Assembly: GCF_026151205.1 (NCBI RefSeq) | Contig: NC_087081.1 | Coordinates: forward strand, 2,919,246-2,983,245 | Length of the DNA: 64,000 bases | Direction of reading: 5' to 3' | Origin: Bolinopsis microptera | Taxonomy: Eukaryota; Ctenophora; Tentaculata; Lobata; Bolinopsidae | Shown: one piece after another, positions 9,681 to 63,251 of the stretch | Numbering within the stretch: the stretch's first letter is position 1 | Layout of the letters: each line of letters opens with the position of its first letter | The notes under the pieces: model-generated | Database searches by the model: none | Seen by the model: the letters and a program-made list of their open reading frames with translations, nothing else | Told to the model about the DNA's origin: nothing | Program-made: the position numbers and the translations under genes

Positions 9681-9778
9681 CCAATCTAGCTAGGTCTATT
9701 TGGTCACGTGCTTTGAACGACTGGTCACGTGACCAGAAAGAGCCAATCACAAGCAAGGAAATGGAGGAGACGGCCAAT
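9681..9778 (+). promoter_or_regulatory. CCAAT / double E-box / CCAAT module
   Basis: CCAAT at 9681, CACGTG at 9705 (24 bp), a second CACGTG at 9726 (21 bp), CCAAT at 9743 (17 bp) and CCAAT at 9774. In animals CCAAT boxes are bound by NF-Y and CACGTG by bHLH-leucine-zipper factors such as USF, MITF/TFE or MYC/MAX. The fixed spacing recurs across the window; which factor acts here is inference. Confidence 0.45.
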
Positions 9779-10501
9779 GGTAAGACAGAGAATTGTCCCA
9801 GGACTCGATCGGAGAGCCATTAAAATTGTACTGATGGACCGGAGATTTAGGGACAAAACTAAACTGTAATCTGGAAATATCATAATATGATGAATTGATC
9901 AACTACGAATATATCAAATATATCAGATGGATTGTCAAAAATAGATGGACCAAAATGTAGGGTGGGGGCTGACACTTTAGAATTTGAGGTCAAAAGCTAC
10001 AATAAACTGAATTAAGGAGAGGTATAATAAAATAAACCGATCGAGGGATGGAAATCATCACTTCTGGCCACAAACCATTCGAGAAATAGACATTAGACAA
10101 GTTGACATGATTTGACATGTTATTTTACATATTTTGGAGTAATATAATTGGGTTTGCGGCAAATATACGACCAGACGTTCTGACGGTTTGAGCATAAAAA
10201 TTACAGACTTGAATTCAAAAAATTTCTACCAAATAGCGAGCAGAATATTTCAAGCAAAGGACTTATTATTTGTCGTCTGTTGATATGGATCTATCTGCAG
10301 GATAGAGCCTTGAATGAGAAACAACTCCTGAATTTTACCACCCCCACCCCCTCATGATTTAGTGGAAATCTTTACAGTGACTACACACGTTAAGAGAGTA
10401 TAAATGACAAATAGGCCGATTTAGCGACAAATTTCAAGAGAGTCGCACTGACCATGTATGTGATATGCTTTCTGCAAACATCCTGACAAATGTTAGCTAT
10501 G

Positions 10502-10558
10502 AATATTCGGCAGAATCCAGATAGCCCGACCCCTGTTCGCGAACAGGTGCCGAATATT
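10502..10558. repeat. nested palindrome
   Basis: An outer inverted repeat with 11-bp arms (AATATTCGGCA at 10502-10512, its complement at 10548-10558) encloses a perfect 16-bp palindrome, CCTGTTCGCGAACAGG, at 10532-10547. The whole 57-bp segment could form a cruciform or a dimeric binding site. It is GC-richer than its surroundings. Confidence 0.8.
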
Positions 10559-10794
10559 TGATATAAGAGATTGTAAATCCAAGCCATGGTGTGGTGGAGG
10601 TTTAATCTCAGTCAACAGTCCACTGACGCCACAATAGTATAAATCTCCATTAAAGTGAGCGATGGGTAATGGCACTCTGGGTTGACAAATGAACACTATA
10701 CCCGGTAACGTTTTAACTTTTTAATGGATTGCGTACAAATACTTACAGTAAAGCAGGCGTCAAATTAAGGTGTTCACAGAGGGTTAAGGAGCAG

Positions 10795-10865
10795 CCAATC
10801 AAACTTGAGAATTTGGTCACTTGTCAAATAAACGAACCAATGAGAGGCTTGAGAAGTAGCACGTG
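10795..10865 (+). promoter_or_regulatory. CCAAT/E-box module
   Basis: CCAAT at 10795 and 10837, CACGTG at 10860, so 23 bp separate the second CCAAT from the E-box. The downstream text (GTTTATTGTTTAAGAGG) resembles that after the related pair at 45226/45247, suggesting two copies of one ancestral element. Confidence 0.4.
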
Positions 10866-12171: not shown

Positions 12172-12218
12172 ATTGGTTTATCCAAATAGCACGTGATAGA
12201 AGGAAACAATCTGATTGG
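12172..12218 (-). promoter_or_regulatory. CCAAT/E-box module (reverse orientation)
   Basis: On the minus strand CCAAT (12218-12214) precedes CACGTG (12195-12190) by 23 bp, and another CCAAT (12176-12172) lies 19 bp beyond. Two more E-boxes, including the palindrome TGCACGTGCA, follow at 12299 and 12325-12334. Confidence 0.4.
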
Positions 12219-13628
12219 TCACCCCTGGCGCACGGTCCGTGCTTACCTTGTTATTAACTGGAACATTTTCAAACCACATAAGTAGTACACGGGACGCGCA
12301 CGTGTTTATATTAGATGTATGAAGTGCACGTGCAAATTGGGCCGCGTGGTTGATGGTTGGGGACCCACAGGTGCAGGGTAGCAACCACTTAATCAGTGGA
12401 GCATCACGATAATTGGGTCATTGGTTAGCTGCCGATGATACCAGAAGGATACTGATAAAACAGTTATTGTGTAAGATGGGACCAGTTATTCAAACCGTAG
12501 TTATCTGTATGCGATAAAACAAGACGTGCACCTGTGCACCATGATAAGTAAGACAGATAAGAGTTTGTTATCGTATTAGAAGATAGTAGAGATGCAGATA
12601 ACATGAGTAGGTAAACTTTATAGCTCAAGGGATAGCATTCCTTTCGATGAGACATCTTTAAGTACTCATATATCGTATGGGTTCAAACAACCACGTTAAG
12701 GTATGTCATATTTTAAATGTTTTGATACAATTATAACAAGCATTAATTGTGTTTAAATCAAAGCCATGAAACCTTGCATTGGCAGGTCAGCATGATAAGG
12801 AGCAACATAAACTATTTATTTTCAGTTATTTTAGGATTTTAAAAATTTCTCAAACTATAAATTCGAAAACTTCAAAACACCTTGCGCCTGCGATTTACTA
12901 CAAAAACAAGGCAGTACAATAAGGGCACAATAAGGGACACACTTATACTTATAGGGACACAATGGAGGTTTTAGCAAGGTTATCAAGCTGCTGTAGCCGG
13001 GTAACCATGGTGACCAGTAGCTATGAGTACGGTAACCAGTAGCTGAGGCTTCTGGGGGCTTGGTCGACTGCCGGAAGTCAAACGTCACTTTTCCAGAGAA
13101 TTAATTATGCCAATAATTTGGGAGCGTCCTCTGCAATGTTTTGCATTGGATCAAATTTGTAGCGAAAAAGGGACAATAACCTTTGTCCGAAAAACGTAAT
13201 ATTCGCGACAACTTCAGTAATTATGCTGCAAACACTTCAGAGACAATGTAGCTGATATAATTCGAACAGACTGGAAACTATTGACAATTATTGCATCGTG
13301 CAAACAGAACAAAAACGTTGGGAGAAAACTTATAGAGACCTCAGCTACATGCCACGACAAATTATATAATTTAGTTATGACGATAAAAATCATAATTCCC
13401 GGCCAGGAATTGATACCCAATATCGGACAAACGCTCTGTGGGCTGCAATTGCCATTCACCAAGTACCAGCCACTAGAATACGTTAGAAACTTATTACAAC
13501 ACTACAAATCTATTACGTTTTTTGAGAATTATGTAATGTAACGTGATGGAAATATTTTAAACGGGCATGTCCTGTCCAAACCCATAATTCGTTGTAACTT
13601 TGTTTGAAAAGCATTAATAAAGAGGGAT

Positions 13629-14268
13629 ATACATTACGAGTAGTCTTAATAGCTGTTCTGGAAACCAGCTGGAAAAGGTGACAGACTTTGTTTACCTTGG
13701 AGCTTGGATAGCAACAACAGAGAGGGACCTGCGGGTCAGAAAAGCTAAGGCTTGGGCAGCCTGCCACAAGCTAAAGAAGATGTGGAAGTCTGACCTTAGA
13801 AGAGGACTAAAGATCCGTCTATTTGTTGCTACTGTGGAGTCAATACTTCTTTATGGTTCTGAAACGTGGACGTTGACAGAGCAATTGAAGAAACGCATTG
13901 ATGGCTGCTACACTAGAATGCTAAGGATGGCACTTAATGTGGATTGGAAGCAGCGAAAAACCAACAAAGAAGTCTATGGCAACCTACCGAGAGCAACCAT
14001 GAAGATCCAAGAGCGCAGGATGCGACTAGCAGGCCATATCCACCGGCACCCAGAACTAGTCGCAAACCGCTTGCTACTCTGGGAACCAACTCATGGGGTG
14101 CGGAGTAGGGGGAGACCAGCCATGACCTATGTTGATAGCCTACGAGCTGACACGGGTCTCAACGACACTGGAGAAATGGGCGGACTTATGGCGGATAGAG
14201 TTTTATGGAGACAGCGCATCAATACTCGGACGCTGAAGCCGCCTTAAGTCAAGTAAGTCATACATTAC
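13629..14268 (+). mobile_element. 5'-truncated LINE insertion with target-site duplication
   Basis: The insertion runs from 13638 to 14259. It is bounded by the 9-bp direct repeat ATACATTAC at 13629-13637 and 14260-14268. It starts inside the reverse-transcriptase region, ends just after the stop codon, and closes with a short AAGTCAAGTAAGTC tail. This is the expected product of target-primed reverse transcription that stopped early. Confidence 0.85.
13639..14247 (+). pseudogene. C-terminal fragment of a non-LTR retrotransposon reverse transcriptase
   Basis: About 203 codons are open from the truncation point to a TAA stop; there is no native start codon. The fragment matches the end of the polyprotein of endonuclease/reverse-transcriptase LINEs common in marine invertebrates: a YLG motif with FVYLGAWI, then LLYGSETWTL, a CYTRMLR segment, TNKEVYG, the ERRMRLAGH segment, GRPAMTYVD and a tryptophan-containing tail. 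The catalytic palm with its YxDD box lies upstream of the truncation and is absent, so the protein cannot be active. The frame has no internal stops, consistent with a fairly young insertion. Assignment to a clade (CR1, RTE or Jockey-like) is not possible from this piece. Confidence 0.88.
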
Positions 14269-15640
14269 TCGATCGAATTTATAAACCAAGTTAATTGATC
14301 TAGAAAAAAACCCGGGGGTCAAGTGAGTAGAAAGAGTAATGAGTATGTACTCATTTAATTGAGACATTGAGACAGGGTATTAAGTATTTAACTAGGTAAC
14401 GAGGTTATGTGTCCCTCTGTTTCACGGGCCAACAGACTATTAACTGGATTACACTTCCATTCCGCATGGGATTATTGCCCTATTCGTGGTATTATTATGG
14501 AAGAGAATCGGGACAAAACAACCTTGTGGATCAATAAGATTCTATAATTTAAAGAGAAAGGAATGTCCATAAAACTTGCACTTATGTTTCAAAGAGGACA
14601 ATGTAGACTGGAGGTGAACCAATGATGTTGACGGTGTCGGGTCATTGATAGGGCACGTGACACAGATGGAACGTTTTGATTGGCTGATAGAAAACGCATT
14701 GTGTTGTGATTGGTTGTCGTGAGTAACGTGATGAGAATTTATCGAAGGTAAAGATTGGTTTGAGATTTCACCTCGGAGAAGATGTGAAACTTGAACTGTG
14801 GGAGCGGATGAAACTTGCGGAATAAGACAACGAATCTAACTGTTAAAATGCCGCCCGAGTAAAAAATCGAATTGAAAATTGAATTGAATTAAAAACAGAA
14901 GGCAAGTATTACATAATTACCCGGAAATTGTAATTTGAAACAGAAAACTTAGTCGACAGTCACAAGAAGTCTCGTATTCCTGTCAACTGAACTCGGAATC
15001 ACTCAGCCTGATACTGTAAGGGCTATAACCAGCTATAAACGCAAGAAGTGGTTAAACTGCCAACCTCCTGGCTATGAGAACAACACTCCAGTGCAGGAAA
15101 CGCGGTAATCCTTATAAAAGTGCGGGAAAATCTGACAAAATAATTGGTATTAATAAACAGGGAAGATTATTATCAATCCGTTTGACATCATGCTTATCAT
15201 GAGAACGGCGGACGAGAGGCACAAAGCGAGATTTACGTGTCATAGATGAGGTTTACGGGTGACGAGTCAGGAAGAGGAGAAGAACAAGGCCAGAAGAGAA
15301 GCAGATCCAGATTAGTAACTTGTGAAGCGTTATCAGACGGTGTCTGGCTGTCTGCCCATTTGATGGGTTTCTGATAGAGGACTGGTAAGACATTAGTAGA
15401 GGAAGTATAGTTTTGATTATATAACTTACTACTGGTGTCTATTTATTGTGTTGGTGACCCAGCCCAGACTCAGATGAATTGTTGTAATGGAAAACATAAT
15501 ACCTTTATATTGTGTTAAAACCTCTTTCTAATACTATATTCCTTTACAAAAACAACCAAAAATACACCTCATCAGGGAAACTGATGCTGTATATTGTGTA
15601 ACACAGGCTCGCCGAGAAGATAAGTGAATCCTGTGGAGTG
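14269..15640. other. noncoding DNA with one CCAAT/E-box module
   Basis: No exon seen. On the minus strand CCAAT (14683-14679) precedes CACGTG (14659-14654) by 24 bp, with another CCAAT at 14713-14709. The remainder is AT-rich unique sequence. Confidence 0.5.
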
Positions 15641-16002
15641 CACCACGGAGTTCACCACGTGCACCACGGAGTTCACCACGTGCCCCACGGAGTTCACCAC
15701 GTGCACCACGGAGTTCACCACGTGCCCCACGGAGTTCACCACGTGCCCCACGGAGTTCACCACGTGCCCCATGGAGATCACCACGTGCACCACGGAGTTC
15801 ACCACGTGCACCACGGAGTTCACCACGTGCCCCACGGAGTTCACCACGTGCACCACGGAGTTCACCACGTGCCCCACGGAGTTCACCACGTGCACCACGG
15901 AGTTCACCACGTGCCCCACGGAGTTCACCACGTGCCCCACGGAGTTCACCACGTGCCCCATGGAGATCACCACGTGCCCCACGGAGTTCACCCCGTGCCC
16001 CA
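15641..16002. repeat. 21-bp tandem array carrying an E-box in every unit
   Basis: About 17 units based on CACGGAGTTCACCACGTGC. CACGTG occurs at 15656 and then every 21 bp to 15971, 16 times without slippage; the next unit has CCCGTG. Units alternate between two variants (GTGCAC and GTGCCC after the core), and two units carry ATGGAGATC. Because 21 is a multiple of three, long repetitive frames are open on both strands; they reflect the period, not protein coding. Confidence 0.95.
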
Positions 16003-19440: not shown

Positions 19441-22400
19441 GATTTTTTTCAAATTATGCTGTTAAATTATAAAATTACATACTGCGTGGTTAGTTAAAGA
19501 TGGAACGAGTTAGATTTTCATGAACTAAATTAAAAGCGACAAAATTACTCTGTAACAGTGCAATAACTGCGCTAAACTCATAAAATTGCTAAAATAGAAT
19601 TCCCACCGTGCGGCTGGTATGCTATAATTGAATTTACCACACATCCAGTGTATACCTTATGTACTGTAATTTGGAAATTGGACCGCATGCTTTTATTCGC
19701 GGTAAATACCATCCAATTCAAGCCTACAAGTATTGGTGATTAATTGGCTTGAAAACCTCAAATTGTTAAATTGCCAAAAATAATCAGACCATGATATGAA
19801 GCACAACTCAGCTATTTTAGTAAAATATTCGGAGGATGTGAGCCCGGGGCAAGGTACGTTGCAGATAACAATGAATTGTTGAACAATACTAAAATATAAC
19901 GAATACAACAGGTCCATGCTGGCTAGCCTGATAGCTAAATTAGTCCCCAACACTGCACAATGATAGCTAAACTGCTAAATTAGTCCCCAACACTGCACAA
20001 TGATAATTATAATAGGTAGGGGGCTGGTTGAGACAGCTGTGGAACACATGAATAGCCATGAGGTTGCACAAGTTGAGAATGGATACTGAATAATAAACTG
20101 AAATAGCTCCAAGGTCCGTTGTTATCGATTATAGTATTGTGTACTGGACGACGGACGCTCCGAGGTGAATGTAGGACGATGAAGCAAACAGACAGTTTCT
20201 AACGAGTAGGGACAAAGGAAGAGGAGAATTTAAATGGTGAACTTGAAATAAGCTAAGAGCTAAAGGGTGATCTGAAATAGACAAAAGGGGTTTAACCGAG
20301 CAAAAAAGTCTTGCAGCAAATAGCAAACTATCGCACGACAATCACAATGCGAGGGTCACGTGGCAAGCCTGTCACGTGACTAACCTAGAACCTACAAATG
20401 ATAACGTTCGATGGGATCATCTGAAACAAAACAAGGCGGAAGGTGTTTTGTTTGGGAAAAAGTTCAGATAAAGGAGCTCTGAACAAGTGCAACAATAGGG
20501 GTTAGGTAATCCAATCAGCACATTTCGTTTGATCACGTGACTCGCCAAGTCCAATGACCGAGCTTTAATTTATCACGTGATTTTGCAAAAACAGCACGTG
20601 GCTTTACTGTCCAGGGAACCTTGAAACATGGAGAGTATAGATAGAACTAAAACAGTTGATGTAGTAACAAGCAATGTTGAAAGTAAGTTTACAAGACGAA
20701 AATAGGAGTGTGTTAAGGTGAGCTGAATTAAGCAGACGGAAGGAAGTTAATTTTGAAAAGTCAGTCAAGGGTGTGAAATGACAAATTAGGAATTAAAATA
20801 CCTTCAGTCCTTTCGAAATCATCCAATAATCAGGGATGATAATCGCATTGAAAATCATAATAATATAATTTTCACTCGAGCGGAGCTGTGACGTAGTTTC
20901 TACCGTTGGAGAAGACTTTAAAAATCTTTTAATCACAAAGATAAGCAAGAAAACACTATGACGGGAAAATTAATTTGAGGTAGGAGGTTAGGATGAGGTT
21001 AGAGTTGAGGTTGGAAATAGGATAGTGAAGACGATAACCCGTATTAGTTATACGGATCGTGAGATCTCTACTTAGTATCCTTACCATTGTTAAAACAAGA
21101 TCCAGGAGATATGGAGTCTTAGAATAGTTTTTATTGAATTATGAATTGCAACATCGACTCATTAATTTGTCATGTGGTAACTGAACTTTAAAGATATAGC
21201 CAGGTTCACTTAGACCTCCGATAATGAAGATGAATCATTGATTACGACAGATTGCAGCAAGGTAGCGTTTTACAGTAGACAATACAAAGCCAACCTTTCA
21301 CAGGTAAACTCTCAAGTAGTACTCACAACCTTCGCACACCAAACCTCAACATATCACGTGATAGAAACCATAGTAACCACGTGATAGAAACCAGGACTCC
21401 TTGTTGGCTGGGTATATTAATGCACGTCTGCTATCGGCGGATGAACAGTTCGAGAGCGTGAGTACCATTAGCTCGTTATTAAGTATTATCACCGGGCTAA
21501 AAACTACTTGACATCAGTTACAGAACCGCAGGGGTTAATTAGCTGAAATTAGCTACTTATTTGAGGATCAGTAGGCCAACGGGTATTATATTTATCTCCG
21601 TCCGAAATTAATATAATCAGTGCAACTACTTAAACAATCAAAATTTCAGGGCACGAAACGACGAAGAAATAAAAAGGAAGATAAAATAGTAAAGATTTAA
21701 TGCACAGAGTTAAGTTTATTAGAAGATAATATAATAAAGAAGTGCCATAGATTAAGACGGACCTCAGACATGACCAAAAGACTAATGATATTGGCACTAA
21801 ACTGATAAAAGGGTCTGCCATTTTAGACCTGCCAAGATTCCAATGAGTGGGAAATGCCATCTCCGATCCCAAGACACGATTGTTGAACCTTATACCACCG
21901 AATTTAAACCACTGACTTTATTAGAAGTCTGTCTTACTTATAATTTGAACCTTGAGCTACACAATGCTAAAATGTGTCAGGAATCAGGAACCATAGAAAA
22001 TGCAACCTCTTTGCTGGAGCCCGATTGGCTCCAAATCATAAAGGAGGCAAGAAATAGAAAGCAATCGGCTACTACTACTACAAAGCAAGTAATATAAACT
22101 TGAGAATGGAATGAATGAGGTACGAGCCCAACTCCATTTCGCCCCGGGGCATTTTAGAGGAAAGCACTTAAAGAAAACATAGGACCAGTCCCCCCTCATT
22201 CAGCGGGCACCATTACCTGAGGAGACCAACGCAATGAAAGCCAAACATAAATGTAGCGAGAAATATTACGTTATAATATTGCGATGTGTGCCCTGTTGCG
22301 AGTTCTCGTATAAATGCAGATTTGTTGGTTTGGGCATGTGCCTTGCAGCGCTGTATAATGGGACGTTACGAGAGGGTGCAGTGTAATGACGGCTTTATGT

Positions 22401-24543: not shown

Positions 24544-27500
24544 CTGAGGAAGGGATAAGGATAAAGTTCAGTGCTTCCACGATGAAGGGTAGTGTTTGAT
24601 CTAGAAATTCTATGGCTAATTTTTTTCATAAACAAAAACAATGAGAAGAAGATATGAGTAGAGCTCAAGCTTATAGAACAAACTAATAGCCAATCAAAGC
24701 TTCTCAGAACTCCTGAAATTTGAAAATTCATGGAAGTGGAGCTTTCGATTTAAAATTTGATTCTGAAAATAGAACTATTAATAAACCAATACTTACATCT
24801 TCGTTAATGTTGTTATTAATAGGTTCGGTGTTCTTGAACCATGTAACTTCCGGCTCGGGAATGCCTAAACAATCACACGGAACGTTCAGATCTCCCCCTT
24901 CCATAACGGTCAGGTTTCTGCTCGGCAATGGGAATTCTGGTGGCTCTGAAATTTCGTGTGGTTAATTCTTCATTCGACAAGGAGAAAAGGGTTATTCACT
25001 CGAGATATTTAATATCTGTTATCAGATCGGTTCAGTTACTCGATACCTGATCATAAGAAATAATTCTTAATACTGATAGATGAGTCATGAGAAATGTATG
25101 TTGTGGGCACGTGTAGACAGTGAATCAGACTTTAACAAACATGTACAAACATAATAATATGTGCATTGGCCATTGTGCAATATAAAAGTCTTCAACTTCG
25201 ATACAAGATCGTGTGCACGAAACACAGTTAATGAAAGTTCGTAAAATTTAAGCGGGCCAGAAAAACGAAATATTCGATCTCGTGGCCGGTAACGCGCGCA
25301 CATGTTATAGTCGATGTTGTCAACAAATTGCATACCTTTAGATACTATTGTGATTTTCGCGCGCTACGTAAAATCTACCAACTTGTGGTCCAATTTCTAA
25401 TAGTGAACTCAAGCAATTTGCGGCTTATGATTCCAGACAGTTTTCAGATAACAGACAACACCGTAATTCAGCATAAACAACCTAATTACAGACAACCAAA
25501 AAAGAGTTTAACGATCGTTCAAAACCGCCCGAAATTGAAGAAGCTAACTGAAAATTTGTCTGAAAACCGACCAGATATACTCAGACACAGTAAGCTTTAC
25601 CCTTAATATTGCATGTGCAATCACTACGGACTTAAGGACATGCTTCATTGCCATTAGAGACCGTTGGGAAGTTCTTATCAACCTATAAGATCTATTAACC
25701 TGGATGAACTCGATCTTAACCTGATAGCCGATAGATCCAAACACTGAATCATCTGTAGATCCAAGGAGAAGATATGAGTCAACAAGTGTGGAAGGATAAG
25801 TGATGTTACTTGATATTATTGAGCTTGTGTCTGATGATTGACTCCTTAGGTACAAGGTCGTGAGTCTCTGATTGGTCTGAGACACAAAATATATCATTAT
25901 TCCGATACAAATCCATTCCACAGAAATTGTACGCCAGACCAAATGAAAGCATGCACATAATTGAAGAGACTCTTTCACAATTTGATTTATCAATCAAATC
26001 ACAGATTGCATATTATGGAAGCATGTATCATTATTTCGTATGCAAACTAAACCTATTCAAGTGTGTTAACATACTCTAAAGATTACACGGGTAGTAGCTG
26101 ACTGGGGTGGTGAGCAATGACTGTTGACCTACACACAGTTCGATTACATATTCAGTGGTCACTGGTCATAATTTTTTCACTCAAAGTTCAAGTCGGATAT
26201 GCGGATATGCGGATATGTGACATAATTAGACGGCAGACTGTGGAATGCGTAAACCGTAAAACCACGAAACTTAAAGCTCACGTACTCAGTTCTCATGCAG
26301 TTGTTTGTTGACTTGAGGAGCACAAGTTTAATGCTGGGATCAGGACTCAAGGAAAAAGCTTAATAATTTAATGTAATTTTAAAAGTGTGTTCACTGAATA
26401 TTGGCCCAATATTTGATAGGGCGAGCCTGAATTCGTTCAGAAGACAGTCTGGATCTGATTTACCAACTCATTCGTATCTCTTAGGCTAGAGGATATGGAG
26501 TCTCTAATGATTCGTCTAAGTACAGGATTCAGCCTAATGCAGACTCCAGAAATAGACCTACAGTGCAATGGGAGACTTCTAACTCACTTCCGTGTAGAGC
26601 ACGGAAAGCAAAGTATAGTACACACTCCAGATCTTGTTTTCAAGTACGATCTGATGCAACATTCCTAATGTATCTTGTTTGGAAATCTAGGATGATATCT
26701 CCAGGATTCAGTCGTGAAATATCAAATGAGGATGAACTTGTAACATATAGTTTCGGATTAAGGCGATTAAATCAAACAAGGACTATCAGACAGCAAAATG
26801 CAGCGAATTTCTTAATCTCCCGCCTCAAAAAGTCAAAAATGCAGTGAATTTCTTAATCTCCCGCCTCAAAAAGTCAAAAATGCAGTGAATTTCTTAATCT
26901 CCCGCCTCAAAAAGTCAAAAATGCAGTGAATTTCTTAATCTCCCGCCTCAAAAAGTCAAAAATGCAGTGAATTTCTTAATCTCCCGCCTCAAAAAGTCTA
27001 AAATGCAGCGAATTTCTTAATCTCCCGCCTCAAAAAGTCAAAAATGCAGCGATTTTCTTAATCTCCCGCCTCAAAAAGTCAAAAATGCAGTGAATTTCTT
27101 AATCTCCCGCCTCAAAAAGTCAAAAATGCAGTGAATTTCTTAATCTCCCGCCTCAAAAATGCAGCGAATTTCTTAATCTTTCGACTCAAAATTCAGCGAA
27201 TTTCTTAATCTTTCGCCTAAAAATTACTCACGCAATAAAGTGAGGTCAATGAGACTGACTCTGACTTTGTCGTTGTTCTGAATAGCTGTACAGTAGTACC
27301 GTCCCTCGGCGTCAGATCCAAAGTTGGGTATAGTCAGGAGAACCGTGTTGTCGCTAACTATAGATCGATCAGGTAACTCACCTCCGTCCTGTTAAAGGGA
27401 TTAATTTAATTCACTTTGTAACCACACAGTAATTAAATAGTAATTGAATAGGTTAAGTTCATTAGATTTAGAAAATCAAACAAAGTGTAAGATTTAGTAG

Positions 27501-30500
27501 GAGATTTATCGGCGAATAAGTGGGGCCGGTAAGTAACTGATCATGTGGTATATTTCATCATCCGTCCTGACTAGAAAATGTTTCAAATGGTAACAAAGTT
27601 AAGATGCCACATAACCGCTGAAGATTTTAGCAGCAATTAAGCAATTAGTTTGAAATTTGAATCATATCAACTGTCCGACTTTCCAGTTTACCAATCAATC
27701 TTTAATTTGGAACGTTAGAGATAAAATAATCGGTAAGTATGAGAATATATTCATCATCGTCTACTGTTATCTGAGGCATGATCGTGTCATCGAGTAAAAT
27801 GTCTGGTCTGAATCTAGTTTCAATCCCAAAATTGGATTTCAATAACTAATGAGATTTTTCCAAATAAATCAGTGAATTTACAGTGGAAATCACAGGAAGG
27901 GATAGCGAAGACCTAATACTTTCAATAGGTATTATTATGTAATGCCGGTAAGGAATTGATTTACCATTACGGACTTGTGAAATGCTGTATAAGGGAACTT
28001 ATATATTGAATTGCAGTCTCGTGCATTTTCCGCTTCGCAGTAATAATATTTTAGTAATTATCTCAAGTGATTTTTTATCCCAGACGATATCTCTAAACGT
28101 TTTAATCGAAATATTGTTTATTGTCTGATCAAATTATCCAAATGGATAGAACCTTTTTCAGCAGAGAAGACATGCGAAAAACTATTTTTTTCAACTGTCG
28201 CGTCTTCAGTCTTGAATAATCGATGTATATATTACAACATCAGTGGACTCTAACTTTAATATAGCTTTACATTATAGGTCACTGGGATCCGATTCCATAA
28301 TAACTTAGAATGAATATCATAAGGACAGACATTCTAAAAATTCTAAAAATCTGTTGATTATACCTGTTAATGTTTTTACAATTCCCATCGATAAATTAGA
28401 TATTCATATATAAAAAAGAAATGTTACGTACCTTGGACCAACGGATGGTAGGGGTTGGTGTGCCATACGGGATACACTCCAATATTGCCGTACTCCTACT
28501 CACAACCGCAATGTTATCCAGCGGCACGTATATGTCCGCGGGTACCTCTTCTATTCTACCTGAGGTATTGGGCGTTAAGATGCGGTTCTGTGCGGTTAAA
28601 TGAAGTGTTGTGCGGTAATATACCAGTATTGTGCGGTTTTTAGCACAGTGTTGTGAAATTTTTAGCACATTCACGACACTTCTCAAGCAGTCAACCATGG
28701 TTGGATGGTTTTGGCTGGGTTTAAAACCGCTACAAAGCTAAGGATGGTAGACACTAAAAAGATTTAAAATTTACTTCACACCACTGCCCAGCCTGATGGA
28801 AATATTTGAATGTGAAACGGTGTGAAAAAAACAACTGCATAGTTTTTGTAGAAGTCTGTATGCGTCTGCAATTAATAAGACAACAAGAGCGTCTGCAATT
28901 AATAAGACAACAAGAGTGGCTTCTTGACCACTAGCTTGCTATGATCGACCAAATATTCACCATTGTGAGGTTTCACGTAGTATGGGACGGTTTGATGCAG
29001 TATTATGCGCTCTTCATGACGTACTGCACGACTTTGTATTGTAAAATTCTCAACATTTTAGATCTCATTATCCTTAAAAGAGACCCACGAAAAACAGTAT
29101 AATTTCCAGTAATTACAAGAGTGTACCATCACATAACACTGTTCATCATCAGATGATCGTTTGGTTAAGATAAGGGTGATTCAGTGTGAATTAAAACCAC
29201 ACAATTCCTCCATCCTATGTTACTTCCTGTATTATTCCTATATTACATTTAATCGTGTAATAACCGAATCTAATCGTGGCAAGAGTAAATGAAGCTAAGA
29301 AAATACCCTCTTTCTTGGAGCACACATTCGCAAACTATAATTGAATTGTCACCCTCTGCTAGAGGTGTTTAACACATGGCCTCCATTGTTCGAATAACTG
29401 AGGACCATTGTTAGGGTAAGTTAGTGTGGTTGGGATAACCGGAATATCTGATAACCTCACCCCACATTCTATAAAAACATTACAAGAGGGTCATTCATCA
29501 TAAGGTCCATTCATCAAGTTCATCAAGTTCATCATTGTTATAATATTTGGAGATATACGTAATATGGGCAGTAATTGTGAGTACAATTATCGGCTACTAC
29601 AAATACTTGAGTATTATCCATTTATTCACCATTTTATTTTGAGTTAGTCCTGATGAAGTGATATCGAGAGATAATGGAATGGCATACGTCACACATATTG
29701 GCGAAACATTTTTGGAAAATGCTACATTCAACCCGTTTAGTACTCGCGGCCTGATAAGTCGTTCAATCGAAGTTTTGTCACAACTTTAAGGAACAGTGTA
29801 AACTATAAATCAAAATAAAGTAACGAAAGTTGATGAAAATACCACAAATCACTGTTGGTGGTTTTTATAGCTAATAGTTTTCATCATACTGATGAAAATG
29901 GCGATCAAGCGAGTCATGACTACCCACTTTTAACGGTCTTATCGGCGATGTACTGAGTTTTGGGACTCTTAAAACTATTACCTTTCTCCACCAACCTCTA
30001 GAATAATCTAACTCTGATCCGTGAGATTTTACCCCTAAAAAGGTAACCGACAAAAAATGATTATTATAGTTACAGAGGTATTTGGCTAGTGTAAGTTACA
30101 TTGCATAACTCTTACCAAGAAATCTGTACACTGCTATTTCATTGACTGCGGCCTTCTGTAATCAAATAAGCGTTATTATTTAGAATACCCATCAGCCATC
30201 TTCAGGTTAATATCAAATTTGATAATTTTATCAAGCTCTCTTTGCATTGTTCACCAAAATGCGGACAGACACCCTAAAAGCACTCTATTGTACGTGCTGT
30301 GAGAAAAGAGCAGATACAGTCCCTCCTGTAGAAATATTTCCTGGCTTTTATATAAATTAGTTAGGATACTTTCAGCCATGTTTATTGTTTATGTCTACAT
30401 CGTATTTGATTTTATCAAAAGTTTATCTGCATTACATATTATCTGAGATCAACCCATATCATGAGTACAGAGGTATAGGGACAGAGGTATATCACATACA

Positions 30501-39500: not shown

Positions 39501-42500
39501 CATACATTCACTGGAATGAATTTTAATCTTAATCAGACGATCGAAATTGTTCTCAAAATTGCGTAATCTCGGTTGTCGAGGAACTCTGACGAAAGTCACA
39601 GCTTTCGGCGGGATTGTTAGGAAAATCAGTCTTATTCTCAGTTTGTACTTTGGCGGTGATCTGCAAAGTATAAGTACAGTTCAATTGAACCGTTTCTCGT
39701 AAGTTTTAACTCAGGGCGTCATGATCCTAACAAATATGTGTTCCAGGTAGGACATGGCACAATAATTACAATAATTAACATGATAACTATGATTATCACA
39801 ATATAATTGCACCAGACCATGTAATATAATGGTGGCCTTGTACAAAACCAGTGAATTCAAAACACATAAGCCGATATTCAATTGCTTACACGCTTTCCAA
39901 AAATAGAACTGCAAAGAAGAAACTTGTAGCTTAGACCATGTTAAATTGCGGGATAAAAAACAATTGCACACGGAAGTTCGTAATGAATGGGTCGAGCGTT
40001 TGTCGGGCACATTTCATTTTTACATTCGGTGTAAGAGCGTTGAAAGTGAATGTATGGCAGTGTGACTTGTGTGTGTGTATGTCTGGTGAAACAAAAACCT
40101 AACATATTATAATGGATATTTAACTTCTGCGAAAAATATATATTATCCTGTATGCGGTGACAACTGACTGAAATCAAAATTATAAATAATTTCAAAGAAA
40201 AAACAAACGGGCGTTGTTAAAACAGGTGAAAATAGATAAAGATAGATAAGACAAGTGTCAAGTACTCACAAGGCGCAGTCAGCGTTGCTTTACGGGAACG
40301 AATAACCCCCATCTTGTTTTCTGCTTCACACGAATACTCTCCGGCATCCTGGAGATAACATTCATATAATAATTCCTGGTAACTTGCCAAACATTCATAC
40401 AATTCCTGGTAACTTGCCAAACATTCATATAATTCCTGGTAACTTGCCAAATATTCATATAATTCCTGGTATCTTGCCAAACATTCATATAATTACTGGT
40501 ATCTTGCCAAACAGTCATATAATTCCTGGTATCTTGCCAAACATTCATACAATTTCTGGTAACTTGCCAAACATTCATACAATTTCTGGTAACTTGCCAA
40601 ACATTCATATAATTCCTGGTAACTTGCCAAACATTCATACAATTCCTGGTAACTTGCCAAACATTCATATAATTCCTATTTCCTGATATCTTGCCAATCG
40701 TATCAATATTACTTAAAGATATTCATGATATTATAATCCGACACATTCATACACCTAGAATCAAAGACTTGGATAATGGATATCAGGGGGCCGGCGAAGC
40801 ACGCATCTTTTCGTCTGTGACAGCAATAATCCTTTTTGATTGGTAACTGCTACTAGTATAGCTTGAGCCGACAATACCTTATCAAGCAAATATTTCTTCT
40901 AGCTTTATTATGGTTATGCAACACATATTTTCCCATCCATAATTCCATATGTCAAATATTATGCAAACTGATTGGAATCTTACATAGGACAGTTTTTTAA
41001 ACCTGGACAACTCGCTCGTCACGACCGTTTAACTTGTTAAAGTGGTATTTTTTCCTAACAACTGTGGCTGAGCTGTAATCACCTCCGCCAAAAATAAAAA
41101 CTCGATCAATTTATTTGGGTTTTAAAAACTTACAAGTTAGAAGCTTGCTTCAGAGCCTTCTTAATCTAAGAAATTCCTAACATAATTTACATATTATTTA
41201 GCATATGTTTTGCATATTATGACCACGTACCGTGTTATGGCGGACACCGGTTATAGTCAGTATTCGGTGGTTGTAAAGGCCGTCCACCGCGGCGTCACTG
41301 ATGTGTCCCTTCGCTGAAATGACATCCAACGTTACATTATATAAATTTTAACCTATTTTGATAAGAAAATTAACAGCATCAATGAAAAAACCAAAACGTT
41401 AATTAGATCATAAATGAAGCGTCAATTTCAATGAAATATTAAAGCCAAAGCTGTTCTTTTAACAAACGATAAGCAAATGGTGTTATTCAATATTTATAAT
41501 AAATATGTTAACATTCCTAATTCTGAAGATAAAATACCCGAACCATCCTTTGAAAAGTAACACCCCCATTTTAATGAAACAAGAACCGAAAATTTACGAT
41601 TATAAATAAGTTTTTATAATAATTGGAAAATCGAAAAGTGTGGGAACTCACGGATGAGACGCTGGGAGTCCTTGTACCAGACGATAACGGGGGCTGGGTA
41701 TCCGCGCGCACTGCACGTGAACTGTACCTGTCCTCCTGTCCTGTTCACCTCAACTGGACTAGGTTCTAACGAAAAAAACGGGCCTGAAAAGAATTTATAT
41801 ATTAGTATATTATTTACTGTTTGAATTATCGGAAATTGATAGTTATTGAGTTAGTGGAAGTTATTAATTAGTTGATGTGTCGGGATGGATATTGGGTGCA
41901 TAAGTACGAGGTAGTACGAGTGTAAATATAGCCGTGTTAAAGTTTCTTGTAAGTTAAACATTTCTGAAACATGAGATCATTCTTGCTGTAGTGAAAGCAA
42001 AACTACGCATCAACATGAAATCATAAACCCACATGACAAAATTACACTAAGTATTCATGTTCGACATTCTTGAATGATACTTAGTGATCATTGCATTAAA
42101 TAAATTTATAGTCAGTAAGATTAAGAAGTTTAACATCTTTCCTGATGAAATAACTCAAAATTCGAGTCAAGATCTGCAAATTGAAGAATTCAGACTCATA
42201 AAACTTGTCATCACTCGCTTCTCCAACAGAAATAAAAACAAGGTAAATCCATCAGTGTAGCAGATGGGTTACTGGCTTCTCCAACAGAAATAAAAACAAA
42301 GTAAACCCATCAGTTTAGCAGATAAGGAAAGCGGACTTATCTTACCCGTCACATTTGAACCTGCTGTATATTTCTTTACCGTCCCATGACCAACTTTTTG
42401 AGTTGGGCTGGCGACCGTTTTATCTAATTCTGATACGATCAGAAAATCAGACTCATTTCATTTTCATGATCAACTTTACATTCAATTATTAACATAATAT

Positions 42501-43945: not shown

Positions 43946-45790
43946 GGATGAAGAAGAGGAGCTCTTTTACGACAACTCAAGCAAACTGATGAAATGGTTA
44001 GAAGTCTCAACTTATATACTGGGACCTGGGTCTTTGATAAGGCAGGGGGAAGACAATCTATGAAGTTATCATTTCAAGGGGAGCGGCTTCATTATTCAAA
44101 ATGCAGGCCCTTTGTGATCGCCTGTTGCAATGCGGGGGACAATAATTGGAAATACTAATTGAAAAGCTGCAGATCCCAATAATACTGCAATACAATTACA
44201 CACAAACTAAGAACTGGTGCAACCATCTATGGTGCAACCAACTATGGTGCAGCTGAGAGCTGAACACGTGACATTAACAAAGCAGAGGGTATGGCAGGGA
44301 CTAGGGAGTGGAAGTAACAAGTGTCAAAACTCTGGAAATCATCGTGTGATTACCACCTTCGTGTGAGTCCGAGTCAACCAAATGAATTTACAATCTCAAA
44401 ACTCGTGAGGGGTGTTCTGAAATACAGTTAGGAGCTTCGGTGACCTGAGGCGGCGGGTGGCGCTCGTTAATTTCTGTAAGTAAACAAATTATATTAAATT
44501 TAATGATGCGTAAATTGAAAATAGACTGTCGATTGCCTAGTCTATTGAATAGGGAGAATAGTAGGGAGATCTGCACTTCTTTTATTATCGTGAACTTCTT
44601 CTTTTCTCAAGAACGTGAGATTTACTTATTTATAAGTAAGGTACTGTATTTCTATTATAATAAATTCGTTTGAAAGTTAAATAATTGTCCTAATTATTTC
44701 TTGCAGACCATGTGGAAAATATTGACAAAATTCTGCAAGAAAAAATGACGATAAGGAAATCCCATGTTCTCGAGAAAAGAAGAAGTTTAAACCTCCATTC
44801 TATTCGCGATGAACACAGACCTGCACAAATCTCAAGTTCTTAAAAATACATACGTTCTGCAGATCTCGAATAATGTTAATACAGACGCGTTCTGCAGATC
44901 TCTATTTCTGATGAACGCAGAAGTGCACAGATCTCAAGTGAACGTCGCCGAAACGTGAACCCAGTGACGAAAGACCGTGTCCGGCTCGACTAAGGCTCAA
45001 AATCACGAAGCAGCAAAATCCAGACATCCCGGCAGCCTACCATTGGAACATGACCAGACACGTGACCCTTCACTGACCCGTGAGTGGCCAGTGGGTCTGC
45101 GCTGGCTGAGGTAATCCTATATAGGACGAGGGGATGACGGTGGGGAGCGTACTTTATGTTGTAATCCCCAGGAACGGGTCCGACCAACCACAAACCGATA
45201 CCTCATCTCACGGGTCATGTCAGAACCAATGAGAGGGCGTGAAAAGCACGTGACTCAAGTATGTGGAATTGGTGTTTAATACAATCAAGAGGGGATTTTA
45301 ATAACCCACTCCCTGTAGTCCAGTGAATAGTGGGAGAGAGAAGAGTAGTAGATAGTTTCTACTGGTCCCTTTATAAGGAGGTTTGAAATGGAGCACAAAT
45401 TGCTGGGGGGGGCTAGGTATCAGTATCACACGTGTAATCTAGAGGGTGGGATCAAGAGGATGATCTAGTCGAAACAGCTGAAAGTGAGACCCTTGTCCGG
45501 TCCACCAGGATAGATTTCATTAAAATAGTGAGCTGAGACTGAGAATAGACCGATAGTGCGGTTAATTAAATCAAGGTCAGCCTGCTGCTGCTGCTGATGA
45601 AAGTTAAGCTATTGAAAACCACTATGACATGTTGAGTGGTGACCGCACGAAAATAGTCGGGTGGTTTTCTGTTCAAGATATATCATTGTCAGCAAAGTGG
45701 TTGGAGATATTGGTTGATGCTACGAGGAGAGGCCTGTGAACCATTTAGGCATATTTAAAAAGGAACGTATATATCAGCGGTATGGTATAA
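43946..45790. other. noncoding DNA, possible upstream region of the gene
   Basis: No exon recognised. Contains E-boxes at 44266, 45059, 45247 and 45429, with CCAAT at 45226 preceding the one at 45247 by 21 bp, and a direct repeat around GTTCTGCAGATCTC (44857-44903). A 62-codon minus-strand frame at 44576-44388 follows a TTACTTACAG acceptor-like site but has no domain. Confidence 0.45.
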
Positions 45791-52796: not shown

Positions 52797-52869
52797 CCAA
52801 TCAGAGAGCAGGATTCTGCCCACGTGACCAAGCTGTCAGCCAATCACCGGACAGTATTGTGCCCACGTG
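52797..52869 (+). promoter_or_regulatory. duplicated CCAAT/E-box module
   Basis: Two consecutive 43-bp copies: CCAAT 52797 then CACGTG 52821, and CCAAT 52840 then CACGTG 52864. Each pair is spaced exactly 24 bp. The copies share GCCAATCA and GCCCACGTGAC at the ends while the middle differs, so the spacing is kept although the linker is not. Confidence 0.5.
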
Positions 52870-54850: not shown

Positions 54851-55035
54851 GGTAGTAGGTATGTAGTATGTAGTAGGTATGTAGTAGGTATGTAGTATGT
54901 AGTAGGTATGTAGTAGGTATGTAGTATGTAGTAGGTATGTAGTAGGTATGTAGTATGTAGTAGGTATGTAGTATGTAGTAGGTATGTAGTAGGTATGTAG
55001 TATGTAGTAGGTATGTAGTAGGTATGTAGTAGGTA
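54851..55035. repeat. 11/18-bp tandem array
   Basis: Mixed units of GTAGTAGGTAT and the same with an added GTAGTAT. Minus-strand tyrosine/leucine-rich frames across it are artefacts. Confidence 0.93.
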
Positions 55036-56522: not shown

Positions 56523-56599
56523 CACGTGACACGTGTCACGTGACAGGTAACGAACAAGTTAGTGATTGTCACGTGACGGGGTAGTTAGAGGGTCACGTG
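56523..56599. promoter_or_regulatory. E-box cluster with 7-bp phasing
   Basis: CACGTG at 56523, 56530 and 56537, exactly 7 bp apart, then 56568 and 56594. The first three sites are too close for independent dimers to bind at once without contact. Confidence 0.4.
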
Positions 56600-57173: not shown

Positions 57174-57310
57174 CCGGCTGTTACGGTAACATCCCTCTAA
57201 CAGCCATAACAAAACAAAAGTAAGCGTCGGCTGTTACAGGGTCGTTATAGGGCTGTAAGGTATTTGTCCCCTCTAAATGGCTGTTAGAGGGCTGTTACCG
57301 AAACAGCCGG
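57174..57310. mobile_element. MITE-like inverted repeat
   Basis: Arms of 33 bp (57174-57206 and 57278-57310) match at 31 of 33 positions around a 71-bp loop. The arms are built of GGCTGTTA-type units, and the loop holds more of the same, so the motif occurs at least six times. No clear target duplication was found at the edges. Confidence 0.6.
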
Positions 57311-59053: not shown

Positions 59054-59143
59054 TAAGCCGCTTATCTAATATGATTTCCTGGGAAGCCATTAAACGCTTA
59101 TCAGAGAAGCGTCTAATCGATATGGCTTCTCGGGAAATCATAG
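59054..59143. repeat. clustered stem-loops
   Basis: Arms 59071-59091 and 59123-59143 match at 19 of 21 positions (core GGGAAGCCAT-type). Two shorter stems, GATAAGC/GCTTATC at 59053-59067 and CGCTT/AAGCG at 59096-59112, lie in and beside it. Confidence 0.7.
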
Positions 59144-60352: not shown

Positions 60353-61925
60353 GGTAAGTGGGCAGGATGTTCAGGGGAGGGTGACTAAGGAGGGTGACCA
60401 GAGAGGATGGTGACCAGGGAGGAGGGTAAGTGGGCAGGATGTTCAGGGGAGGGTGACTAGGGAGGGTGACCAGAGAGGAGGGTGACCAGGGAGGAGGGTA
60501 AGTGGGCAGGATGTTCAGGGGAGGGTGACTAAGGAGGGTGACCAGAGAGGAGGGTGACCAGGGAGGAGGGTGACTAGGGAGGAGGGTGACTAGGGAGGAG
60601 GGTGACCAGGGAGGAGGGTGAACAAGGGAGGAGGGTGACTAGGGAGGAGGGTGACTAGGGAGGAGGGTGACTAGGGAGGAGGGTGACTAGGGAGGAGGGT
60701 GACCAGGGAGGAGGGTGAACAAGGGAGGAGGGTGACTAGGGAGGAGGGTGGCTAGGGAGGAGGGTGACTAGGGAGGAGGGTGACTAGGGAGGAGGGTGAC
60801 CAGGGAGGAGGGTGACCAGGGAGGAGGGTGACCAGGGAGGAGGGTGACTAGGGAGGGTGACCAGAGAGGAGGGTGACCAGGGAGGAGGGTGACCAGGGAG
60901 AAGGGTGACCAGGGAGGAGGGTGAATAGGGAGGAGGGTGACTAGGGAGGAGGGTGACTAGGGAGGAGGGTGACCAGGGAGGAGGGTGAACAAGGGAGGAG
61001 GGTGACTAGGGAGGAGGGTGACTAGGGAGGAGGGTGAATAGGGAGGAGGGTGACTAGGGAGGAGGGTGACTAGGGAGGAGGGTGACCAGGGAGGAGGGTG
61101 AACAAGGGAGGAGGGTGACTAGGGAGGAGGGTGACCAGGGAGGAGGGTGAACAAGGGAGGAGGGTGACTAGGGAGGAGGGTGGCTAGGGAGGAGGGTGAC
61201 TAGGGAGGAGGGTGACTAGGGAGGAGGGTGACCAGGGAGGAGGGTGACCAGGGAGGAGGGTGACCAGGGAGGAGGGTGACTAGGGAGGGTGACCAGAGAG
61301 GAGGGTGACCAGGGAGGAGGGTGACCAGGGAGAAGGGTGACCAGGGAGGAGGGTGAATAGGGAGGAGGGTGACTAGGGAGGAGGGTGACTAGGGAGGAGG
61401 GTGACCAGGGAGGAGGGTGAACAAGGGAGGAGGGTGACTAGGGAGGAGGGTGACTAGGGAGGAGGGTGAATAGGGAGGAGGGTGACTAGGGAGGAGGGTG
61501 ACTAGGGAGGAGGGTGACCAGGGAGGAGGGTGAACAAGGGAGGAGGGTGACTAGGGAGAAGGGTGACTAGGGAGGAGGGTGACTAGGGAGGAGGGTGACC
61601 AGGGAGGAGGGTGACCAGGGAGGAGGGTGACTAGGGAGGAGGGTGACTAGGGAGGGTGACCAGGGAGGAGGGTGACCAGAGAGGAGGGTGACTAGGGAGG
61701 AGGGTGACCAGGGAGGAGGGTGACTAGGGAGGAGGGTGACTAGGGAGGAGGGTGACTAGAGAGGAGGGTGACTAGGGAGGAGGGTGACTAGGGAGGAGGG
61801 TGACTAGGGAGGAGGGTGACTAGGGAGGAGCGTGACTAGAGAGGAGGGTGACCAGGGAGGAGGGTGACTAGGGAGGAGGGTGACTAGGGAGGAGGGTGAC
61901 TAGGGAGGAGGGTGACTAGGGAGGG
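60353..61925. repeat. 16-bp G-rich satellite with higher-order duplication
   Basis: Begins with three 72-bp units (marker GTGGGCAGGATG at 60358, 60430, 60502), then runs as 16-bp units (GACTAGGGAGGAGGGT and variants). Rare variants recur at exactly 432 bp: GTGGCTAGGG at 60748 and 61180, GGGAGGGTGACCAGAGAGG at 60851 and 61283. 432 is 27 units, so a long block was duplicated as a whole. The plus strand is dense in GGG runs. Confidence 0.95.
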
Positions 61926-62131
61926 CTGTACAAAGGTAGCAGGCAGGACCGGGGAGGAACAAAAGAACTAACTATCTCACTAACAAACTAACTCAGCGCG
62001 CAATGCGCATATATTGACACAATGGAGCGACCTGACACCCACAATGGGAGCGCGGAAATTGAGGGAGTTCCTCTGACAAATGGAAAGAGGGTGTTGGGGG
62101 AGCTGGGAGTCACGAGGTTTGGTGGTGATGA

Positions 62132-62209
62132 CCAATCACAGGGCGAGTAGGCGGTCACGTGGTGTGTGTCCTCCAGTGGGAGAGAAGAGAGACCACTGGA
62201 CTATATAAT
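62132..62209 (+). promoter_or_regulatory. CCAAT/E-box module with TATA-like box
   Basis: CCAAT at 62132, CACGTG at 62156 (24 bp), and TATATAA at about 62203. This is the most promoter-like of the modules, but no coding start follows. Confidence 0.42.
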
Positions 62210-63205
62210 GTATCATGAGATCTTAACAGAAGTGCGATATATAATTATATTATTCGGACTGTTTAGTACCTGCAATCTGCATGCTTTACACGATATACGT
62301 ACAATTTAGATAAGCCACGCAAGGTTGTTCGAGGCCTACATACTTACACAATATATTATATAATACGTTATTAAGAATAAGATTAATGTAAATGTAGCTG
62401 GATATTAGATATGAAATATTTTATATTAAATCCATAATTCACCGAAGAGCCTCCATTTGTATTCTGAGTTACGAAACGTTTTGAATTTGTCTTCATATCG
62501 ATTACAGCATTTAAACAATATAGAATTCAGTTTACAGGTAAATACCTTCACAAATGTGGACAAATTATGTTTTAAGGAGATTTTGTGGCTAGAAATTCAC
62601 AAATTGGGAAATTCAACAGTATACCTAGTTCTTTTATTAAGTTGAACCCATCTTGCTGCAGTATTAATTCGTGGCCAATTTTTCCAGTATGAAATATGTT
62701 GGCAGGATAATTCTATCAAGTTTCCAGTATACAAACAAAATTTCGTTAAATAATCCGTTTTACCGAACATTCCTAGTCCATAGATTACATCACCTCTCAT
62801 TTCCGGAAAGAGGGAACCGTACCAAATTAGAAACATTTTATCCGAAAATAAAAATCATACGTCTAAGATGAACTTCCATCGATTCGAGGACCGGAAATAC
62901 AACTTAAACACGGCAACTTTTGTCTTCAACAAATACAATACGTTCCTACAGAGTGCAGACAAGGTGCCTTGTACTACAACGACACTTGAACAACCTCAAA
63001 ACTGAAGATGAAGCGCCATTACCCAAGTTCCTAGCAGTTACCATTACTATTACCACGTAAGGTAGAGAGAGAGAGATGAGCATCAGAAAACAAAGCGTCA
63101 ATACTAAGTTCAATAAACAGAGTGGGTGGAAGTGTAGCCATCAAATGAGTCGTTATCGAAACTGTAGGCATAACACGTCTAGACAAAATTATTACCAGCA
63201 AGCAG

Positions 63206-63251
63206 CCAATCATACTGTCGAGTACTCGTCACGTGGCGAGGGGGATCCAAT
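63206..63251 (+). promoter_or_regulatory. CCAAT/E-box/CCAAT module
   Basis: CCAAT at 63206, CACGTG at 63230 (24 bp) and CCAAT at 63247 (17 bp). Same geometry as at 20511/20534/20551. Confidence 0.45.

Follow-up and report, generated by a model that had tools for sequence, protein, structure and literature searches.

Introduction

To our knowledge, it is uncommon in animals for two general transcription factors to keep a rigid spacing, and the human pair of NF-Y and USF is one clear case. In most of the human regions co-bound by NF-Y and USF1, the CCAAT box is located 17-18 bp downstream of the E-box (PMC7046753), and human USF1/2 and MITF are positioned 10-12 bp 5' of CCAAT (PMC7793273). Because the distance is defined differently in the available portions of these two reports, any match to the human E-box-to-CCAAT spacing is good to 1-2 bp. 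At the Txnip promoter, according to the accessible part of the report, NF-Y is needed for the recruitment of Mondo/MLX (PMC2791861). We here examine a stretch of 64,000 nucleotides from the ctenophore Bolinopsis microptera (contig NC_087081.1, positions 2,919,246 to 2,983,245; the window), in which a sequence-only reading had noted CCAAT boxes at a fixed distance from E-boxes (CACGTG) and had proposed that they are either strictly arranged NF-Y/bHLH-zipper promoters or enhancers, or copies, now eroded, of a single mobile promoter. The features of the human-type composite that were found here are the E-box spacing (six pairs in the window), the CCAATSR extension, the RTCACGTG flank, and genes for NF-YA and a USF-like protein.

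Results

The window contains 10 CCAAT-N18/19-CACGTG pairs and 6 CACGTG-N10/12-CCAAT pairs. All nine pairs previously noted at 23-24 bp between first bases were present where they had been placed, the real total being 10. On the plus strand, CCAAT-N19-CACGTG occurs at 9681..9710 (CCAAT at 9681 and E-box at 9705), 62132..62161 and 63206..63235, and as two units 43 bp apart at 52797..52826 and 52840..52869 (the 52.8-kb site), and CCAAT-N18-CACGTG occurs at 10837..10865, at 20511..20539, where it opens a C-E-C-E-E cluster, and at 20551..20579 (CCAAT at 20551 and E-box at 20574), which is the pair that had been missed. The minus strand carries an N18 pair at 12190..12218, downstream of which a CCAAT-N18-CACATG resembles a second, decayed unit, and an N19 pair at 14654..14683, with two more same-strand CCAATs within 110 bp upstream. 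In the opposite order, CACGTG-N10-CCAAT, which is near the human NF-Y/USF geometry, occurs at 3001..3021, and CACGTG-N11-CCAAT at 9190..9211, 9726..9747, 20534..20555 and 63230..63251, all on the plus strand; these are the five E-boxes reported earlier to have CCAAT 16-17 bp downstream, and a sixth member of the class (N12) was found on the minus strand at 45042..45064. The pair at 20534 links the 20511 and 20551 units into E-CCAAT-E, with the E-boxes 40 bp apart.

The excess of CACGTG had been estimated by hand as about eightfold, with about 55 copies outside the array; the window contains 72, of which 16 are in a 21-bp array at 15638-16002 and 56 outside it, compared with 7.9 expected from dinucleotides, resulting in an excess of 9.1-fold with the array and about 7.1-fold without it. 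With the array included, CACGTG is the most enriched of all 64 six-base palindromes in the window. As the null for the spacing, CCAAT positions were circularly shifted with the E-boxes held fixed. At the 23/24 spacing, 10 pairs were observed versus a null mean of 0.35 and a maximum of 4, with 0 of 5,000 circular shifts giving 10 pairs, and the null maximum for any pair of adjacent spacings within 60 bp was also 4 (2,000 shifts). No comparable spacing peak was found in the window for CACATG, CACGTT, CACGCG and CACCTG (with their complements), CAGCTG or CATATG. The pair density is about ten times the genome mean (10 versus 0.97) in this window, which was chosen because the pattern was noticed there.

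The genome-wide scan that had been suggested as a check revealed the spacing peak: CCAAT-N18/19-CACGTG occurs 4,030 times in the 264.65-Mb genome, compared with 709 times at N16/17 and 794 times at N20/21. These separate flanking counts, rather than the N0-30 totals, are the clean comparison for N18/19; its share of 40% of the 9,947 pairs counted at N0-30, a doubtful total, may be too high because some minus-strand N18/19 sites are missing from the N0-30 list. The reversed-pattern controls gave 137, 120 and 112 (N18/19, N16/17 and N20/21, respectively), and no weight was placed on the comparison of 137 with 4,030, since a reversed CACGTG loses its CpG and its own enrichment. CACGTG-N10/11-CCAAT occurs 4,185 times, or 32% of 13,210 at N0-30, and its preference was measured against this total, which is likewise doubtful. 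In 20 stretches of contig C1, sampled to a total of 200 kb, 2 N18/19 pairs were found where the genome mean predicts about three; by itself, this sample showed no visible spacing peak and a CACGTG excess of just 3.5-fold. Both spacings are strongly preferred across the genome, and for N18/19, chance or composition was excluded as the cause of the spacing by the circular shifts and the far lower counts at neighbouring spacings.

The two geometries also combine, giving interlocked E-CCAAT-E units. The genome contains 1,184 CCAAT-E-CCAAT and 1,014 E-CCAAT-E triples, compared with 1 and 0 for the reversed controls, and the E-boxes of the E-CCAAT-E units are 39-41 bp apart, which is about four helical turns. 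Some triples form 41-bp arrays, which were seen on C1 and C2, with a probable further one on C12, where two matches are spaced by 41 bp.

Flanking bases, which played no part in site selection, were compared between paired and unpaired boxes. The NF-Y extension CCAATSR was present at 14 of 15 paired CCAATs versus 34 of 139 unpaired ones (p = 2e-7), and the purine preceding CCAAT, which likewise belongs to the NF-Y site, was only mildly enriched (11/15 versus 72/139). An RT flank at one or both ends of the E-box (RTCACGTG), which is the preferred flank of USF/MITF-type E-boxes, was present at all 14 paired E-boxes and at 24 of 42 unpaired ones (p = 0.002). These features suggest that the pairs are probably composite sites for NF-Y (at CCAAT) and a USF/MITF-class bHLH-zipper dimer (at RTCACGTG), which would occupy two preferred positions. 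When the linkers of 100 listed N18/19 sites were grouped into 71 clusters, the strongest columns were those adjoining the boxes, CCAAT[CG]AGA and [AG]TCACGTG, and a few columns in the linker middle had a weaker bias. A third motif inside the linker was rejected, with nothing found beyond weak column biases.

Many copies of the element still lie in repeats, and dispersed repeats as well as minisatellites both carry it and amplify it. Most pairs could be eroded descendants of one or a few repeats, either dispersed or in tandem (the 41-bp unit being an example), that by chance contained both boxes, with the spacing inherited and not maintained. Besides the 41-bp arrays described above, this is consistent with the sharing of a linker with another listed site by 41 of the 100 listed N18/19 sites and by 75 of 100 listed CACGTG-N10/11-CCAAT sites, a class that consists mostly of repeats among those listed. 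Linker likeness among cluster representatives (88 pairs with at least 10 matches) also exceeded that in 300 column shuffles (mean of 57 and maximum of 80). The repeat groups at the site involve 7 of the loci L001-L030, with about 950 bp around the pair common to L001, L005 and L016 and about 800 bp common to L014 and L026; in the window, the pair at 12218 and its CACATG neighbour point to local duplication and decay. We nevertheless consider this explanation unlikely for most pairs, since the ten window pairs have no flank homology to one another beyond overlapping stretches, and none to L001-L030, and the 52.8-kb site, the only one used for a genome search, had a single full-length match in that search, which skips common words. 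Furthermore, linker conservation peaks beside the boxes, the extensions separate paired from unpaired boxes, and N18 and N19 are both present. The earlier proposal of one mobile promoter fails as a single family because the window pairs are without shared flanks and the linkers of 59 of the 100 listed N18/19 sites are singletons; a full-length alignment as one recent repeat family was not seen among the ten window pairs. A retroposon nature of the repeat shared by L001, L005 and L016 is not supported, as the shared stretch stops near 1730-1754 of L001 and the reverse transcriptase ORF spans 1706-3028.

Gene placement was evaluated at 23 non-redundant loci by scanning 126 of 198 ORFs of at least 60 aa. 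An ETS domain is encoded among these ORFs. A cellular gene was placed at four of the loci, where the pair was upstream of the start codon in the sense orientation (one), upstream and divergent (one), or between exons (two). At L004, the first Met of a gelsolin-like ORF is located about 316 bp downstream of the pair in the same sense, with a gelsolin match of 20.2 bits, just below the Pfam cut-off of 21 bits. A promoter position of the pairs is weakly supported, with one clear case, and this part of the sequence-only reading stands less firmly than NF-Y/bHLH-zipper elements of strict geometry, which are supported by the spacing, by flanks of the NF-Y and USF/MITF types, and by NF-YA and USF-like genes being present in the genome.

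For the context profile, 30 sites were used, after removal, as copies or overlaps, of eight loci from L001-L030 and two neighbouring sites in the window. Around them, CpG o/e and same-strand splice donors were flat, without a step. Opposite-strand splice donors were fewer within 500 bp upstream of the pairs at the 30 sites. An apparent directional accumulation of CCAATs on the same strand, upstream of the pairs, was discounted, as 19 of 43 came from the single locus L015; without L015, the difference was weak (24 versus 16), and overall, 11 loci were up and 7 were down. In the window, neither Rfam families at the gathering threshold nor tRNAs were found. Ten window ORFs were scanned singly and 134 of 490 ORFs of at least 42 aa together; the convincing domain matches were immunoglobulin exons on the minus strand, none of which touches a pair, and lone unplaced weak matches to Chordopox_L2, MNNL and TraD_N were attributed to chance.

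It is also conceivable, albeit very unlikely in our estimation, that, instead of being promoters or enhancers, the pairs have an architectural role (as loop anchors, origins or chromatin elements of another kind) or are for the most part inactive. This would agree with the location between exons of two of the four sites with a placed gene, with the unchanged CpG around sites, and with many human NF-Y/USF shared sites being in inactive chromatin, as described in the accessible text of PMC7793273. However, NF-Y and E-box factors cooperate in Txnip activation, according to the part of the report at hand (PMC2791861), and the gelsolin-like start in L004 is just downstream of a pair.

As candidate binding proteins, NF-YA was found at three places in the genome, and a USF-like bHLH-zipper was found with 44% identity over query residues 1-106 (E 3.5e-16). 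The assignment of the E-box partner to USF, which rests on the flanks and this one best match, is putative, and RTCACGTG suits MITF/TFE equally well. In a variant compatible with the composite sites, the partner would be MITF/TFE, SREBP or Mondo/Mlx and not USF, making the pairs a nutrient/lysosome response element, which we consider rather doubtful. The human MITF geometry of 10-12 bp (PMC7793273) and the NF-Y dependence of Mondo/MLX recruitment at Txnip (PMC2791861) speak for this variant, whereas the firmest fixed spacing in the available published text belongs to USF1/2 (PMC7046753, PMC7793273), and a USF-like gene, the only bHLH-zipper searched for, is present. A search with the Antennapedia homeodomain found no Hox-like homeodomain in the genome, the best matches being 47% over 51 aa and 55% over 38 aa; together with the ETS domain, this would fit a sponge or ctenophore.

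Discussion

If the pairs are composite NF-Y and USF/MITF-class sites, NF-Y would bind and bend the DNA, and a USF-like dimer would dock on one side of it or on both, always at a set distance, with the E-box 10-12 bp 5' of CCAAT or 18-19 bp 3' of CCAAT. The docked complex may support a promoter or an intronic enhancer, and one USF tetramer could bridge two E-boxes across a single NF-Y. We tentatively extend this to a possible model in which NF-Y has two stereospecific USF-type docking positions, 39-41 bp apart, and many regulatory regions are a directional E-CCAAT-E lattice, where the tetramer may clamp the bent DNA; the 5' position would be shared with humans, and the 3' position would be another half of this grammar, as yet undescribed. 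A 5' position shared with humans would therefore be older than the divergence of early animal lineages. The near-human spacing, repeated thousands of times in a genome without a detected Hox-like homeodomain, would make a very old gene-control rule, and the N18/19 spacing together with the 41-bp lattice would directly predict the shape of the protein complex.

Among known systems, the promoter E-box of Amphimedon queenslandica (G-box-like) is also of the CACGTG type and enriched in an AT-rich early animal genome, but the main text is without 'CCAAT' or 'NF-Y', and its accessible part gives no fixed spacing (PMC4773876). The holozoan ribosome-biogenesis CACGTG box (Myc/Max) is similar in having CACGTG near start sites, whereas the fly box has AA/CA-type flanks, with CCAAT unmentioned in the accessible text, and the GT flank common here is nearer to the 'anti-flank' KKYCACGTGRMK of that box (PMC2570694). 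Identity with this Myc E-box was rejected because its flanks fit poorly. The Txnip tandem ChoRE/CCAAT promoter likewise has E-box-type elements with CCAAT boxes between them, but it is a single promoter in which one CCAAT is inverted, and the word 'spacing' is absent from the part of the report available (PMC2791861). CCAAT-N18/19-CACGTG has its E-box on the other side and at another distance than in the human spacing and is therefore not the human element, though it may work alike; no description of this spacing or of the 41-bp lattice was found in the accessible parts of published NF-Y/USF work. As far as that literature describes the human NF-Y/USF1-USF2 composite, the element is like it in the two boxes, their relative strand, the flank type and the CACGTG-N10/12-CCAAT spacing, and also in its occurrence in repeats (HERV in humans), but differs in that the second geometry, CCAAT-N18/19-CACGTG, is about equally common here and interlocked with the first into a 41-bp lattice.

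Results

The fixed spacing between CCAAT and the E-box CACGTG is real and genome-wide. All nine pairs reported by the sequence-only reading with first bases 23 or 24 bp apart (CCAAT-N18/19-CACGTG), and all five E-boxes reported with CCAAT 16–17 bp downstream, are present in the window, which holds a tenth pair of the former type (CCAAT 20551/CACGTG 20574) and a sixth of the latter (minus strand, 45064). When the E-boxes were kept in place and the CCAATs shifted round the window, the ten 23/24-bp pairs observed compared with a null mean of 0.35 and a null maximum of 4 (5,000 trials); the maximum across all adjacent spacing pairs within 60 bp was 4 (2,000 trials). The proposed over-representation of CACGTG also held, with 72 copies in the window, 56 of them outside a 21-bp tandem array, against about 8 expected. 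This array (15638–16002; 17.4 copies) has CACGTG at 16 unit junctions, and none of its CACGTGs has a CCAAT partner at either preferred spacing. An E-box-to-E-box distance of 21 bp, or two helical turns, occurs in four cases outside it, namely 9705/9726, 20574/20595, 51758/51779 and a small GTCACGTGATCCGTTGTGAGG array (36931–36999). A 16-bp tandem array (GGAGGGTGACTAGGGA) extends over 1.5 kb (60376–61924), and strong GC skew marks the window's final 4 kb.

Over the 264.65-Mb assembly of 232 contigs (window, C10:2919246–2983245), CCAAT-N18/19-CACGTG occurred 4,030 times, against 709 at N16/17 and 794 at N20/21, one repeat family making up about a quarter of the N20/21 places among the matches listed. 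CACGTG-N10/11-CCAAT occurred 4,185 times, the pooled N0–30 total being 13,210. Reversed-word controls gave 120 (N16/17), 137 (N18/19), 112 (N20/21) and 153 (CACGTG-N10/11-CCAAT), but reversal also strips the enrichment of the E-box itself, which makes the neighbouring spacings the appropriate baseline. Triples numbered 1,184 for CCAAT-N18/19-CACGTG-N10/11-CCAAT and 1,014 for CACGTG-N10/11-CCAAT-N18/19-CACGTG (reversed controls, 1 and 0), totals that are not counts of independent sites because, among the matches listed, many are tandem arrays of a 41-bp unit (e.g., C2:10945048–10945790 and C2:10991166–10991908) and others are dispersed-repeat copies. In two minisatellites the boxes recur at different spacings, with CCAAT-N6-CACGTG repeated roughly every 22 bp (C1:1792225–1793370) and CCAAT-N12-CACGTG roughly every 64 bp (C1:425882–426807). 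GCGCGC and CGCGCG were about tenfold over-represented in a 200-kb sample of C1 (52 and 40 copies), and only about threefold in the window (4 and 3 copies).

CCAAT thus has the E-box at two preferred positions, and at each of them the sites are extended, as seen in bases lying outside the search words. In the window, CCAAT continued as CCAATSR in 14 of 15 paired and 34 of 139 unpaired boxes, with a smaller difference for a preceding purine (11/15 vs 72/139), and all 14 paired E-boxes were flanked by RT on one side or both; among unpaired E-boxes, the 21-bp array excluded, the figure was 24 of 42. We take these extensions to match the preferences of NF-Y and USF/MITF and, since they played no part in the search, to support protein binding independently. 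A directional pile-up of CCAAT upstream of pairs came mostly from one locus and was dropped as support. At locus L015, 19 same-strand CCAATSR boxes, apparently an array, lie in the 500 bp upstream of the pair. NF-YA, usually single-copy in animals, matched three separate places (C7:5786332, C11:8466648 and C4:10257949), one of which has the complete domain in one reading frame; a USF-like bHLH-zipper was matched at 44% identity across query residues 1–106, and a second more weakly.

Eroded copies of one mobile promoter had been suggested as the source of the sites. Among the genome loci L001–L030 around listed pairs, sequence was indeed shared across or beside the pair in L001/L005/L016, L006/L007 and L014/L026, with shorter stretches in L001/L022, L003/L014, L006–L007/L014 and L017/L022. 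However, the first 100 N18/19 sites listed, all on C1, gave 71 linker clusters with 59 singletons, and the first 100 N10/11 sites gave 37 with 25. Across the 71 clusters, the strongest linker columns adjoin the two boxes, the middle ones being biased more weakly, and similar linker pairs were slightly in excess (88, against 57 on average and at most 80 after shuffling). Compared by their 1.5-kb flanks, the ten N18/19 window pairs showed no mutual similarity except overlap between neighbouring stretches, and none to L001–L030. The double site at 52.8 kb had one full-length genome match in a search that skips very common words, a 62-bp match (89%) 20 kb away and two overlapping 76–77% matches on C12, 41 bp apart. 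The element is therefore carried and amplified by repeats, which do not account for every site.

For the other suggestion, NF-Y/bHLH-zipper promoters or enhancers of strict geometry, gene context came from scanning 126 of 198 ORFs of at least 60 aa from 23 non-redundant loci (116 together, 10 singly). At L004, a gelsolin-like ORF just below the Pfam cut-off reads in the same sense as the pair, which lies about 316 bp upstream of the first Met of this ORF, and an ETS gene at L027 has its first Met about 0.6 kb from a pair that faces the other way. Tubulin ORFs (L013, placed by motif) and ubiquitin repeats (L030) flank their pairs on both sides; a calponin-homology match was also obtained, without placement relative to a pair. 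Pairs are therefore found both near a start and inside genes, and a strict promoter role is no more than a possibility. Immunoglobulin-domain exons are spread across about 17 kb of the window's minus strand (24731–41850), two above Pfam cut-offs (24731–24961 and 41617–41850) and others weaker or by eye (27227–27391 and 28399–28737); no CCAAT/E-box pair lies inside this stretch. Two ORFs gave a sub-threshold DUF6451 match (window 13621–14244; L001 1706–3028), the latter also containing a reverse transcriptase domain and starting about 180 bp past a pair.

Discussion

NF-Y, which covers and bends about 25–30 bp, would sit on CCAAT, and a USF-like dimer could dock 5' of it, near the human position, or 3' at the second position. 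The two E-box positions are 39–41 bp apart, about four helical turns, and therefore lie on roughly the same face. Since USF forms tetramers, one tetramer could join them, and repeating the E-CCAAT-E unit would generate the 41-bp lattice. A published study reportedly addresses the USF1 region mediating NF-Y contact.

Two earlier studies argue against a general role in promoters: one describes human NF-Y and USF promoter clusters as almost mutually exclusive (PMC6238301), the other strong promoter motifs as tending toward independent occurrence (PMC3820735). In Amphimedon, a G-box-like E-box is reported at start sites, more commonly in bidirectional promoters, and the main text of that study contains neither "CCAAT" nor "NF-Y" (PMC4773876). 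In the mainly open-access literature covered, we found no description of the CCAAT-N18/19-CACGTG spacing or of the 41-bp lattice, and this half of the pattern is apparently undescribed. The other half closely resembles the human NF-Y/USF spacing, here in a probably distant animal: in human cells, most regions bound by both NF-Y and USF1 place CCAAT 17–18 bp downstream of the E-box (PMC7046753), and motifs of USF1/2 and MITF are found 10–12 bp 5' of CCAAT, some of the shared sites being in HERV repeats and inactive chromatin (PMC7793273). The 16–17-bp class of Bolinopsis agrees with this human spacing within 1–2 bp.
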